A DNA stretch of 35,646 nucleotides from Alphaproteobacteria bacterium (GTDB lineage Bacteria; Pseudomonadota; Alphaproteobacteria; Rhizobiales; Beijerinckiaceae): the NCBI GenBank assembly GCA_021325385.1, contig JAJPHH010000182.1, positions 1-35,646 on the forward strand, written 5' to 3'. Each line of letters begins with the position of its first letter. The stretch's first letter is position 1. Position numbers and translations under genes: made by a program. Below, piece after piece: positions 4,512-24,112 of the stretch. The notes below the pieces were generated by a model. It saw nothing but the letters and a program-made list of their open reading frames with translations, was not told where the DNA came from and did not search any database.

Positions 4512-5278
4512 AGCGAAGGCGGCTGCGGCCCCTTGGCCGCGGCGAGAATGGCCGAGGGCGCGCTTCGGTCGCCCTCCTGTACGATCACGGCGTATGAATC
4601 CGCGCCGTTGACATGCGCCTGATCGAGGCTTGCCTTCAGGACGGTGGGCGACCCATTCCACTCGCCGATCTTCGTAACGGCGCGCACGACATTGGAATAG
4701 GTCAGCGTCGCGCCGGCGTTCTCGCCGCGCTGAATGGCGACCGTGCGCCTGCTGGCCAAGGCGATCAGATACACGCCGGCTTTGTACGTTTTCCCCGCTG
4801 GCCCGGCGCCAAGCGAGATGACGACCGCGCCGCCTTGCTCGGAAACCGCGAGCGGCGCCGACAAGACGTCCGGCCGTTCGCGGGTCCGCGCCTCGGCCGC
4901 CTCGATCTGAGCGAGGTCGCTGCCGACCGCGTCGGCGACGCCGTTGACGATCGCTTGCGGCGTGTAGACGACGCCGCGGCCGCTCGATCTGGCGTAAGCT
5001 CGTTGGCGCTGAGTATAACTCGGCTCGGCGAGCGTATCCTTCCAGCCGATATAGTCCCAATAATCGACTGGATAGGAGATCGCGAGCGTTTCGGGGTCGC
5101 GAGCCAATTCGCCCAAAACCCGGTCGGCCGGCGGACAAGACGAACAACCTTGGCTGGTGAAGAGTTCGACGACCGCCTTGACTGGCGGGACCTCGGCCGC
5201 AAGGCTGGGCGCCGCCGCGCAAGCTACGCCGGCGAGGGCCAGCGCCGCCGTCGCGTGCTGGACAGAAACGAAACTCAT
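4508..5278 (-). CDS. DUF1223 secreted thioredoxin-like protein
   Basis: A 256-residue protein with a signal peptide (cleavage near residue 28 after PSLAA) and the DUF1223 core: AVVELFTSQGCSSCPPAD at about 35-52 with a CxxC pair at Cys45 and Cys48, then a YPVDYWDYIGWKD segment and VVYTPQAIVNG. The pattern resembles a thioredoxin fold with a redox-active CxxC and a cis-Pro-like TPQ. The family is common in alphaproteobacteria and has no settled function; a periplasmic thiol role is inference. It is convergent with the second TPM gene, with stop codons overlapping by four bases, so the two messages must overlap at their 3' ends. Confidence 0.88.
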   Translation of the reverse strand: MSFVSVQHATAALALAGVACAAAPSLAAEVPPVKAVVELFTSQGCSSCPPADRVLGELARDPETLAISYPVDYWDYIGWKDTLAEPSYTQRQRAYARSSGRGVVYTPQAIVNGVADAVGSDLAQIEAAEARTRERPDVLSAPLAVSEQGGAVVISLGAGPAGKTYKAGVYLIALASRRTVAIQRGENAGATLTYSNVVRAVTKIGEWNGSPTVLKASLDQAHVNGADSYAVIVQEGDRSAPSAILAAAKGPQPPSL

Positions 5279-5517
5279 CTTCCAGGACCCAATAACGACT
5301 GTTCTTGATAATAGCCGCCTATGGCACTAAGCCAATCAATTCTGGGTTACTCTTCGTGATGGATCGAATCCCTTCAAGGTTTTCGCCCGGGACCGCCCGC
5401 GAGGGATTGGCCATGGACGACCGCTAAGCTTTCGCTTAACTAGGGACGACTGTTCGACCCGCTCGGTTACGCCTTCAAAATCGCGTGGGAGCGCCGCTTG
5501 GAGAAAGAGACGGATTG

Positions 5518-21314: not shown

Positions 21315-21967
21315 ACGCGCTCGACGCTTTCGCGCAGATTTTTACGCCGCCCTTTCGCGCGGTGCTCGTCAAGTCGCTGGCGCTGACGATCGCGATCCTG
21401 ATCCTCGCCTGGTTCGGGTTCGATCGGCTGCTTGTCTCGTTCATCGGCTTCGGTCCGGCCTGGCTGGAGACGATCCTCGCCATTCTCGCCGGCCTCGGCC
21501 TCTTCGTCGGCCTCGCCTTTCTGGTCGCGCCGATCACGTCGCTCACCGCCGGCTTCTTCCTCGACGACATCGCCCTGATCGTCGAGCGCGAAATCTACCC
21601 GTCCGGTCCGCTCGGCAAGCCGGTCGCCTTCGGCCCCGCTCTGCTCTACGCGCTGCGCTTCGCCGGCCTCTCGATCCTGGTGAACCTCTTGGCGCTCATG
21701 CTGCTGCTTGCGCCGGGGGTCAACGTCTTCGCCTTCCTCGCGGCGAACGGCTACCTTCTCGGCCGCGAATATTTCGAGCTTGCCGCGATGCGCTATCGCG
21801 GCTTCGACGAAGCGCGGGCCATGCGCCGCCATTTCGGCGTGCAGGTCTTCCTTGCCGGTCTGATCATCGCCGGCTTCGTCGCCGTGCCGGTGCTGAACTT
21901 ATGCACGCCGCTCTTCGCGACGGCGTTCATGACGCGGCTGCACAAGCGGCTGGCCGCGGGAGCTTAG
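21305..21967 (+). CDS. EI24/CysZ-like membrane protein
   Basis: A 220-residue polytopic protein with the EI24-domain layout: hydrophobic stretches near 22-48, 57-90, 112-150 and 170-205, the motif LTAGFFLDDIALIVE after the second, and GREYFELAAMRY before the last. Related CysZ is a sulfate permease in enterobacteria, but the sulfate-specific role is not implied for distant members, so transport function is left open. It follows the GT2-GtrA gene on the same strand. Its start lies in the third unit of a 14-bp tandem repeat, linked back to the upstream stop by two five-codon frames, so translation may depend on reinitiation. No separate strong ribosome site is seen. Confidence 0.85.
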   Translation: MIQDALDAFAQIFTPPFRAVLVKSLALTIAILILAWFGFDRLLVSFIGFGPAWLETILAILAGLGLFVGLAFLVAPITSLTAGFFLDDIALIVEREIYPSGPLGKPVAFGPALLYALRFAGLSILVNLLALMLLLAPGVNVFAFLAANGYLLGREYFELAAMRYRGFDEARAMRRHFGVQVFLAGLIIAGFVAVPVLNLCTPLFATAFMTRLHKRLAAGA

Positions 21968-21983: not shown

Positions 21984-22150
21984 AATTTGGAAAATCCTTG
22001 CAGAACGCGAAAAGACGCAAATCCCGCCAAATCGCGCTCGAAAAATCCCTTTCCTATCAAGGACGCTGCCAAGCGTCCGCCAAATTTTTCCAAATTTTTA
22101 TTTGGCCGTTTTGGGCGATTCCAATGGCTTGGAGCGCAAAAAATTTGGAA
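21984..22150. repeat. Low-GC patch with repeated CCAAAT/ATTTGG motifs
   Basis: ATTTGG occurs at 21985, 22100 and 22143, and CCAAAT at 22027, 22080 and 22090. The densest part, 22080-22105, reads as two CCAAATTTTT units followed by ATTTGG and can form an inverted repeat. The base composition is unlike the rest of the window. Confidence 0.6.
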
Positions 22151-22380
22151 ATGCGTTTTTTGAGTTCTTGCATTCGTACGGCCGCGGATCAGCCGTGCAG
22201 ACAACGATATTTCTTTCCGCAACCGCGCATTATATGCGAGAAGGGACATTTGAGGAAGAAATTGTTCGTACCTTTCTCGCAAGTTCATGATCTTACATCG
22301 CTAATCGCCATTTTTTTGCGCTGGACGTCGGCGGCGCGGGATGTGCGAGGTCGTCTTGCTCGGTCGCCTCGAACTTTCTT

Positions 22381-22595
22381 GCCCCTTGTTCGACCCGCCG
22401 GAGGCGACTCGAACTACCCCGAGCGGGAGCGAGGGGCGGACGCCCCTCGCCCCGACACTTCTAGAAGGCCGCCGCGCGCAGCCGGGGTCAAGGGAAGCGC
22501 GCAGCAACCCGCAGCCACGCGCAGCTTCGCTTTGGCGAAGCGAGCAGGGCGAGGATTGCGAGCACTGGACCTTGACGCCGGCGAGCACGGCGGCA
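22381..22595 (+). repeat. Multi-hairpin dispersed repeat, left copy
   Basis: A 215-bp element that is about 85% identical (by eye) to the reverse complement of 22789-23003. Local hairpins in order: GTTCGA...TCGAAC enclosing CGCC-GGA-GGCG; GAGGGGCG-GA-CGCCCCTC; CTTCT-AGAAG; GCTTCGC-TTTG-GCGAAGC (22524-22541); and CGCCG...CGGCG near the end. Single-base indels against the other copy rule out a conserved reading frame. Confidence 0.85.
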
Positions 22596-22788
22596 TGCGA
22601 CGGCTCCGGGTTTCGAAAGGTACGATCATCGCGGGCCTTGGCTGACTGCTGAGCCGCAATGAGAGAGACGCCCGCGTTTCAAGCCAAATTGCCGCCGCAA
22701 GGCGCGGAGGCAAAGGCGTCTATGTCGCTGGGGCGCGTTGGCAAGGGCGTGCCGACTTGGTGAACACGTCCTGTCCTGCACACGCTAA

Positions 22789-23003
22789 TGCCGCCGTGCT
22801 CGCCGGCGTCAAGCTGCGCTCCTCGCAATCCTCGCCATGCTCGCGCGCTGACGCGCGCCTGCGCGTGGCTCCGGGTTGCTCCGGCGCTCGCTTGACCCCG
22901 GCTGCGCTGCGGCGGCCTTCTGGAAGGCGTCGGGACGAGGGGCGTCCGCCCCTTGCTCCCGCTCGGGGAGTTCGACTCGCCTCCGGCGGGTCGAACAAGG
23001 GGC
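22789..23003 (-). repeat. Multi-hairpin dispersed repeat, right copy (inverted)
   Basis: Second 215-bp copy, in opposite orientation to 22381-22595. The same chain of hairpins is kept. At the position of the left-copy stem CTTCGC-TTTG-GCGAAG it has GCGCGC-TGAC-GCGCGC (22843-22858), a different sequence that still pairs fully. The outer boundary on both copies is the same GCCCCTTGTTCGAC sequence, lying at the outer ends of the pair. Confidence 0.85.
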
Positions 23004-23089
23004 GCGACGGATGCCGATACCGTCCCGTTCAATGCGTTTCTTATATTAGGACGGCGCTTGAGCGCATTGTAACGTACCGCGCCCAGCCC

Positions 23090-24112
23090 TCACGCAAACC
23101 TGCTATGCTCGTATTGCCCGCTTTTCCGATAACGAACGAGGTAGCCCGGCGCAATCGCCTCGAAGCCTTGCGGCGTCACGCCGAGCCCGGCCAGCGTCAA
23201 ACCGGATGCGATCGCCTCGGCCGAGACGACATTGTCCGCGCGCAGCAGCGCGACTTCGTCGCGCGTCGTCGTCAGCGCCTTCGGGAAGAGGCCGAACGAG
23301 AGCTTGCTGGCGAACTCGGTCGTAGCGGCGAGCATGGCGGCCAAGCCGAACGGCACGCTCATTAGAATCCGTCGCCGCCCGGTCGTCCGGCAGACATATT
23401 CCACCGCTTGGCGCAGGCTCATCACCTCAGGCCCGCCAAGCTCGTAAGTCGCGCCGGGCTTGGCCTGTCCTTCGAGAGAATTGGCCACGGCCTGAGCGAC
23501 GTCGCCGACATAGACCGGCTGCAGCTTGGTTTCGCCGCCGCCAAATAGCGGCAGGATGGGCGAAAAGCGCGCAAGCTGGCCGAAGCGGTTGAGGAACTTG
23601 TCCTCCGGACCGAACACGATGGAGGGGCGGAGAATCACCGCGTCCGGCTTTTCGTCGCGGGTCGCCTGTTCGCCGAGGCCCTTGCTGGCGATATAGGACG
23701 AGGGCGAATGGGCGTCGGCGCCGATCCCGGAAATATGGACGAGCGGGACGCCGCGCGCGGCGGCTGCTTTGGCGATCGCCCGCGCGCCCGCGACATGGAC
23801 CGCGTCGAACGTCTGCGCGCCGCTTTGCGCGCCGATGCCGACGACATTGACCGCGGCTTGCGCCCCTAGCATCGCCGCCTCGACCGATTCAGCGTACCGC
23901 AAGTTGGCCTGAACCGGGCTGATCTGGCCGACCGTGCCGATCGGCTGCAGGAAAAAGGCGAGATCGGGCCGGCGCACCGCCACTCGGATCCGCCAGCCGC
24001 GCTTGGCCAGCGCGCGCACCACATGGCGGCCGACGAAGCCGGAGCCGCCGAAAACGGTGATCAGCCGGTCGGTCGGATAGGGCCGCTGATTGGCGTAGGG
24101 AAATTCTTCCAT
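23090..24112 (-). CDS. NDUFA9-like NAD(P)-binding atypical SDR
   Basis: A 340-residue protein of the extended/atypical short-chain dehydrogenase class, similar to the complex I NDUFA9-type proteins that are common in alphaproteobacteria. The Rossmann motif TVFGGSGFVGRHVV is at 19-32, and the conserved LRPSIVFGPED segment lies near the middle. The catalytic YxxxK of active dehydrogenases is present in altered context (SYIASKGLGE), so enzymatic activity is possible but not assured. The mitochondrial homologue is a structural subunit of complex I that binds NADPH. ATG at 24112 (MEEFPYANQRPY) is preferred to the upstream ATG at 24160, as the extra 16 residues look unrelated. Confidence 0.88.
   Translation of the reverse strand: MEEFPYANQRPYPTDRLITVFGGSGFVGRHVVRALAKRGWRIRVAVRRPDLAFFLQPIGTVGQISPVQANLRYAESVEAAMLGAQAAVNVVGIGAQSGAQTFDAVHVAGARAIAKAAAARGVPLVHISGIGADAHSPSSYIASKGLGEQATRDEKPDAVILRPSIVFGPEDKFLNRFGQLARFSPILPLFGGGETKLQPVYVGDVAQAVANSLEGQAKPGATYELGGPEVMSLRQAVEYVCRTTGRRRILMSVPFGLAAMLAATTEFASKLSFGLFPKALTTTRDEVALLRADNVVSAEAIASGLTLAGLGVTPQGFEAIAPGYLVRYRKSGQYEHSRFA

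Follow-up and report, generated by a model that had tools for sequence, protein, structure and literature searches.

Related systems

REP sequences and BIMEs are short dispersed hairpins, which also occur as inverted pairs and are moved by RAYT transposases. Integron attC sites are folded sites located behind a gene, with a polarity tied to that gene. The MRSC-65-2 motif is presented, in the accessible part of its source, as a candidate mobile or repeat sequence that is thought to be selfish and whose form, RNA or DNA, is left undecided; it consists of one long stem with a UYCCGG repeat (PMC11109978). Imperfect hairpins on plasmids are also represented by the single-stranded DNA promoters Frpo and ssi (PMC11541004, accessible part).

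The element analyzed here is present as an inverted pair in the window, i.e. the whole stretch of 35,646 nucleotides under analysis. Its family resembles REP/BIME in consisting of dispersed hairpins and inverted pairs, but the element comprises about 200 bases rather than a short hairpin, and the Y1_Tnp domain is absent from the source genome. Like attC, it is a folded site behind a gene with a polarity tied to this preceding gene; unlike attC, it is followed by genes without a preferred direction (13/31). With MRSC-65-2 it shares covarying structure and many copies, whereas several domains and a twin terminal motif distinguish it, a separation made by description only and from the accessible part of PMC11109978. 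In contrast to Frpo/ssi, which it resembles as an imperfect hairpin on plasmids, the element lies on either strand with respect to the relaxase gene, used here as a proxy for the transferred strand. Miniature inverted-repeat elements (MITEs) differ in having target-site duplications, of which none was seen by eye at the six pairs of the source genome. As to internal sequence common to copies, 38 bp are shared by two of the six spacers, and similarity is otherwise weak.

A search of the whole window against Rfam 15 gave no match at curated score, and the three matches obtained at 22300-23100 with E up to 10 were all far below the cut-offs. Over 15 loci with relatives, the only Rfam 15 match was nhaA-I, away from the element. 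A REP/RAYT system was rejected on the basis of 0 matches to Y1_Tnp (PF01797) in the source genome; within the genus sample, this domain had matches in 9 of 11 genomes, in 8 of them over the cut-off. A description of the element was not found in the accessible text of a limited literature search, which included PMC11541004, PMC11109978 and PMC8632094.

The inverted pair in the window

The pair is flanked by convergent genes: the CysZ/EI24-like one has its end at 21967, and the other, NAD-dependent epimerase-like, has its end at 23090. Its parts are as follows.

22381..22595, minus strand: left element copy, type I arm; the folded strand runs right to left
22789..23003, plus strand: right element copy, type II arm; the folded strand runs left to right
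22596..22788, no strand: spacer; over its first 38 bp, 28/38 positions are identical to the C106 spacer
22929..22943, plus strand: inner motif copy of the right element (GTCGGGACGAGGGGC)
22990..23003, plus strand: terminal motif copy of the right element (GTCGAACAAGGGGC)
22442..22456, minus strand: inner motif copy of the left element
22381..22394, minus strand: terminal motif copy of the left element
22831..22872, plus strand: conserved core of the right element, with CTCGCCATGCTCG, the apical hairpin (22843-22858) and CTGCGCGTGGCTCC
22525..22540, minus strand: apical hairpin of the left element

A preliminary description of this DNA had reported two head-to-head copies of equal length, differing by about 15% and separated by a spacer of about 190 bp. 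Both copies indeed measure 215 bp, are inverted and enclose 193 bp; their identity is 86.6% in a MAFFT alignment and 88% by BLAST. The compensatory stem reported there was likewise recovered, as CTTCGC-TTTG-GCGAAG (22525-22540) stands against GCGCGC-TGAC-GCGCGC (22843-22858), both strands of the stem having changed at three base pairs. The double change from CGCAG to CGGAG, described as one change made twice, is real between the two arms of the window, but comparison of all 13 source-genome arms shows these sites to be uncoupled (GG 6, CG 4, CC 2, GC 1). Each window arm folds below 200/200 dinucleotide shuffles (z -6.73 and -5.15).

A different repeat is located in the left flank at about 22080-22151; many further contigs of the source genome carry matches to it, with identities of about 72-83%.

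Copies in the source genome

The element is dispersed in its genome. Searching the source assembly with the window element resulted in 19 matches, including 13 full arms at seven sites; further copies thus exist, namely 11 full arms beyond the two of the window. Of the 13 arms, 12 are arranged as six inverted pairs, in each of which the same ends face outward (C51, which is the window, and C106, C139, C135, C45 and C46), and contig C58 carries one single arm. A fragment at the start of C60 was taken as the same copy as the right arm of C106 because its flank, TGGACG, is identical to the flank of that arm. The remaining five matches are short.

The spacers of the six pairs range from 106 to 213 bp. 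By eye, the arm ends were judged sharp, with flanks differing between the sites, and a loose motif is common to the bases just outside the 5' ends of the arms. Genes adjoining the pairs include typA, uvrC, a ClC channel gene, a Mg-chelatase-like gene and an RNA methyltransferase gene, as well as uvrB according to our reading of a frame. In heuristic gene calls, the gene settings of the six pairs are convergent, tandem and divergent. The congener G010 has both genes that flank the window pair and lacks the inverted pair: its CysZ-like and epimerase-like matches are 232 bp apart, compared with 1,157 bp in the window for the same query positions.

The window spacer, searched against the source genome, matched only itself. 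Compared with the C106 spacer, the 38 bp adjoining the type I arm align without gaps. In 5 of 15 spacer comparisons, including C51/C106, the score was at or above at least 98 of 100 mononucleotide shuffles (local scores 31-36); apart from the 38-bp edge of C51/C106, similarity between spacers is weak. The spacer was also considered as ancestral intergenic DNA and compared with the G010 intergenic stretch. This candidate was rejected, as similarity was weak throughout and the right flank scored best (of 200 shuffles, 2 scored as high for the right flank, 3 for the spacer, 10 for the left flank, and 42 and 57 for the arms).

Relatives in other genomes and on plasmids

The family is common to chromosomes and plasmids of many Alphaproteobacteria, and no Rfam 15 family matched in what was tested. 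Model R1, built from the 13 source-genome arms, matched 18 of 149 family genomes at E 0.001, and BLAST matched 11 of 60 genomes, the source genome being included in both counts; the weakest matches of either search may be due to chance. The core pattern derived from the alignment matches at least 113 stretches of the species collection. Among the 80 matches listed, most are titled Acetobacteraceae, Rhodobacterales or Rhizobiales, and some bins are labelled as other phyla, which may have been mis-binned. Carriage by phages was also considered as a candidate; ten IMG/VR stretches contain the core pattern. Plasmid records of Cereibacter sphaeroides 2.4.1 include a partial match to the core.

R1 was run over 71 of the 118 loci gathered by the core-pattern and plasmid scans and gave 75 matches at E 0.01. 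Of these, 46 were kept as full elements, and 29 were dropped as partial, core-only, weak or duplicate; core-only copies are thus also present among the relatives. Relatives occur on plasmids whose sizes range from 4 to 25 kb and which have rep, par, toxin-antitoxin, mob or traG genes; they come from a plasmid collection, so that the share of plasmids in the family cannot be read from them. The element of locus L190, itself located behind a traG-like frame, has copies of 93-94% identity on Shinella and Jeongeuplla plasmids, there behind a recombinase gene. Model R3, which makes the element searchable, and the exact core pattern each matched 2 of 385 class genomes, the source genome included; as the R3 scan scored at most six candidates per genome and the pattern was an exact one, absence in either says little.

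Fold and covariation

For the left arm the anatomy was read on its reverse complement, and for the right arm on the plus strand (in both cases the named strand). Elements are about 165-235 bases long. The outer helix is formed by TGCCAC..GTGCTCG with CTGCGCGCCGTGGC. Inward of it follow a helix around GTCAAG/CTTGAC, at least one module CTCGCCAT/GTGGCTCC, and a variable apical hairpin. The hairpin is followed by the motif copies, first TCGGGACG-AAGGGC and then, at the very end, TCGAACA-AAGGGC. Members of a longer class have an extra module on both sides of the helix together, as seen by eye. In the relatives L219, L220, L221 and L223 the outer parts are kept and the inner hairpin is different.

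Pairing is kept by double changes. In alignment A6, which comprises 33 elements including six own arms and, being fitted to the model, leans towards it, pairing holds in 92.1% of cells, as against 30-37% when it is slid. Changes on both sides affect 37 of 50 pairs (shuffled 23.0, slid 15-22). The covariation score reaches 0.392 (shuffled 0.137, slid 0.030-0.078), and 0 of 500 shuffles attain any of five measures. The slide control retains relatedness. Covariation, named in the preliminary description as a check, is therefore strong on this model-fitted alignment. Together with the 13 arms and the relatives elsewhere it supports the selection on folded nucleic acid that had been proposed; covariation to this extent in a fold of 200 bases makes neutral debris an improbable explanation. 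Structure-blind alignments gave less. Among the 13 own arms, 5 of 63 pairs had double changes, and three of these five separate the six type I from the seven type II arms. MAFFT with RNAalifold on 41 diverse elements yielded only 11 pairs, which was tentatively put down to unequal insertions; model R2, built from this alignment, was left out of the analysis.

All 13 own arms fold lower on the named strand, with a mean difference of 10.6 kcal/mol; among the other elements this holds for 28 of 46. Conserved C.A mismatches on the other strand are U.G on the named strand, the main alternative being U.U. Counting model pairs together with 1x1 loops, G.U-type cells number 106 on the named strand and 57 on the other. 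For model pairs alone, whose selection had been made on the other strand, the numbers are 19 and 53, respectively.

Gene placement and twin motif

Placement was analyzed with heuristic gene calls for the 46 full elements outside the source genome. A gene within 300 nt before the element is co-directional in 29 of 35 cases (p 1e-4), or 18 to 5 when counted by protein cluster (p 0.011); an earlier rule gave 31 of 36. Genes within 300 nt after the element are co-directional in 13 of 31. On this unbiased following gene, polar integron cassette arrays were rejected. Core-only copies, related copies included, have preceding genes split 32 to 31 and following genes co-directional in 43 of 62. The pairs of the source genome show no tie to a preceding gene, their arms being preceded by the spacer and not by a gene.

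The two motif copies change in step. Over 25 distinct combinations, the six bases behind one copy match those behind the other at a mean of 4.84 of 6 positions; after shuffling, agreement was 2.58 of 6, and 0 of 5000 shuffles were as high. This count covers the 43 of 46 relatives that could be parsed, with own arms left out and kinship between elements uncorrected. Where two candidates existed for the terminal copy, the better match was taken, which biases towards agreement; L140, L180, L193, L147, L159 and L214 were plainly mis-parsed, which lowers it. By eye, the inner copy is positioned in a hairpin loop in many elements. Such change in step points to a specific partner.

Interpretation

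Each arm of the pair is interpreted as a copy of a non-autonomous mobile element, about 165-235 bases long, which would be recognised as one folded strand, either RNA or single-stranded DNA of the same polarity; we hold this reading with about even confidence. The strand would form the outer helix, an inner helix with modules around GCCAUGC/GCGUGGC, the variable apical hairpin and a 3' domain with the twin motif. Copies are located between genes, with ends discrete by eye and, outside the source genome, usually behind a co-directional gene, and would have spread in the source genome as inverted pairs with the motif ends outward. A trans-acting factor, for which no mobilising enzyme was found, presumably recognises fold and motif and moves the element. 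Mobility is suggested by the discrete ends, the differing flanks, the many copies, the absence of the pair in G010 and the close plasmid copies across genera. Of the two alternatives in the preliminary description, a mobile repeat is favoured by dispersal, ends and flanks. The strand-preferring fold, the placement behind co-directional genes and the twin motif suggest that a trans-acting factor recognises a folded strand. The strand preference and the co-directional placement favour RNA or another single-stranded form. Several results stand against this interpretation: target-site duplications were not seen by eye, neither a mobilising enzyme nor a Y1 transposase was found in the source genome, the strand preference is weaker outside the source genome, the tie to the preceding gene weakens when counted by cluster and is missing for the own pairs, the structure-blind yields are low (11 pairs; 5/63), and model pairs alone give G.U-type cells at 53 to 19 for the other strand. 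Should the element be mobile, it would be a hairpin-recognised repeat of unusual size and complexity; should it be an RNA, it would represent a new class.

The bias of preceding genes (29/35) next to unbiased following genes (13/31), and the lower folding of all 13 own arms on that strand, would also fit a transcribed 3'-end RNA element that is carried along with plasmid modules without moving itself and acts in 3' end formation, stability, or factor binding through the twin motif. This is rather unlikely, since genes around the six own pairs are arranged in convergent, tandem and divergent ways in heuristic calls, the arms there are preceded by spacer, and no U-run was seen by eye after the ends. 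The moving unit could instead be the whole inverted pair, a miniature inverted-repeat element with 215-bp ends, as all six pairs have identical orientation and combine one type I with one type II arm. The 38 bp beside the type I arm that are common to the C51 and C106 spacers slightly raise its standing. It is nevertheless improbable: the remaining spacer sequence differs between pairs, arm identities between pairs do not mirror each other, single copies occur (C58, plasmids), and chance alone would combine both arm types in all six pairs with a probability of about 7% (64/924 by our own arithmetic).

Co-change of the inner and terminal motifs might mean that one recognises the other, so that the RNA or single-stranded DNA fold would specify its own junction; such an undescribed nucleic-acid-guided mobile element is a speculative and very improbable case. 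Still more remote is a single-stranded DNA conjugation signal like Frpo or ssi. Elements do occur on plasmids with relaxase and traG genes, and the genes after core-only copies lean to one direction (43/62, related copies included), but relative to the nearest relaxase gene full elements are 7 same and 8 opposite and core-only copies 3 same and 7 opposite, chromosomal copies are frequent in the source genome, and no -10/-35 pair was recognised by eye. Annotated plasmids had suggested a common strand for element and relaxase gene, which the same count, 7 to 8, did not bear out.

Paired copies and associated sequences

In L103 of G010, two relatives in the same direction (2442-2600 and 5212-5368) flank look-alikes of a TetR-type regulator and an MFS transporter, both of which, in our reading, run in the direction of the element. 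On two plasmids, L257 (17188-17393 and about 21946) and L098 (2885-3090 and 17004-17209), pairs of elements point inward from both sides at a module with replication, partition and toxin-antitoxin genes, and each element is located behind a recombinase, traG or transposase gene. L097 carries identical inverted copies at both tips of an 8461-bp contig (1-203 and 8259-8461), as if a small circular plasmid had been opened during assembly in the middle of its inverted pair. A common palindrome, GGCCGGGCTTGTCCCGGCCATCCACG plus its reverse, was seen by eye inside the C46 spacer (L013 2861-3072) and again in L235, the G010 intergenic stretch between the two genes that flank the window pair.
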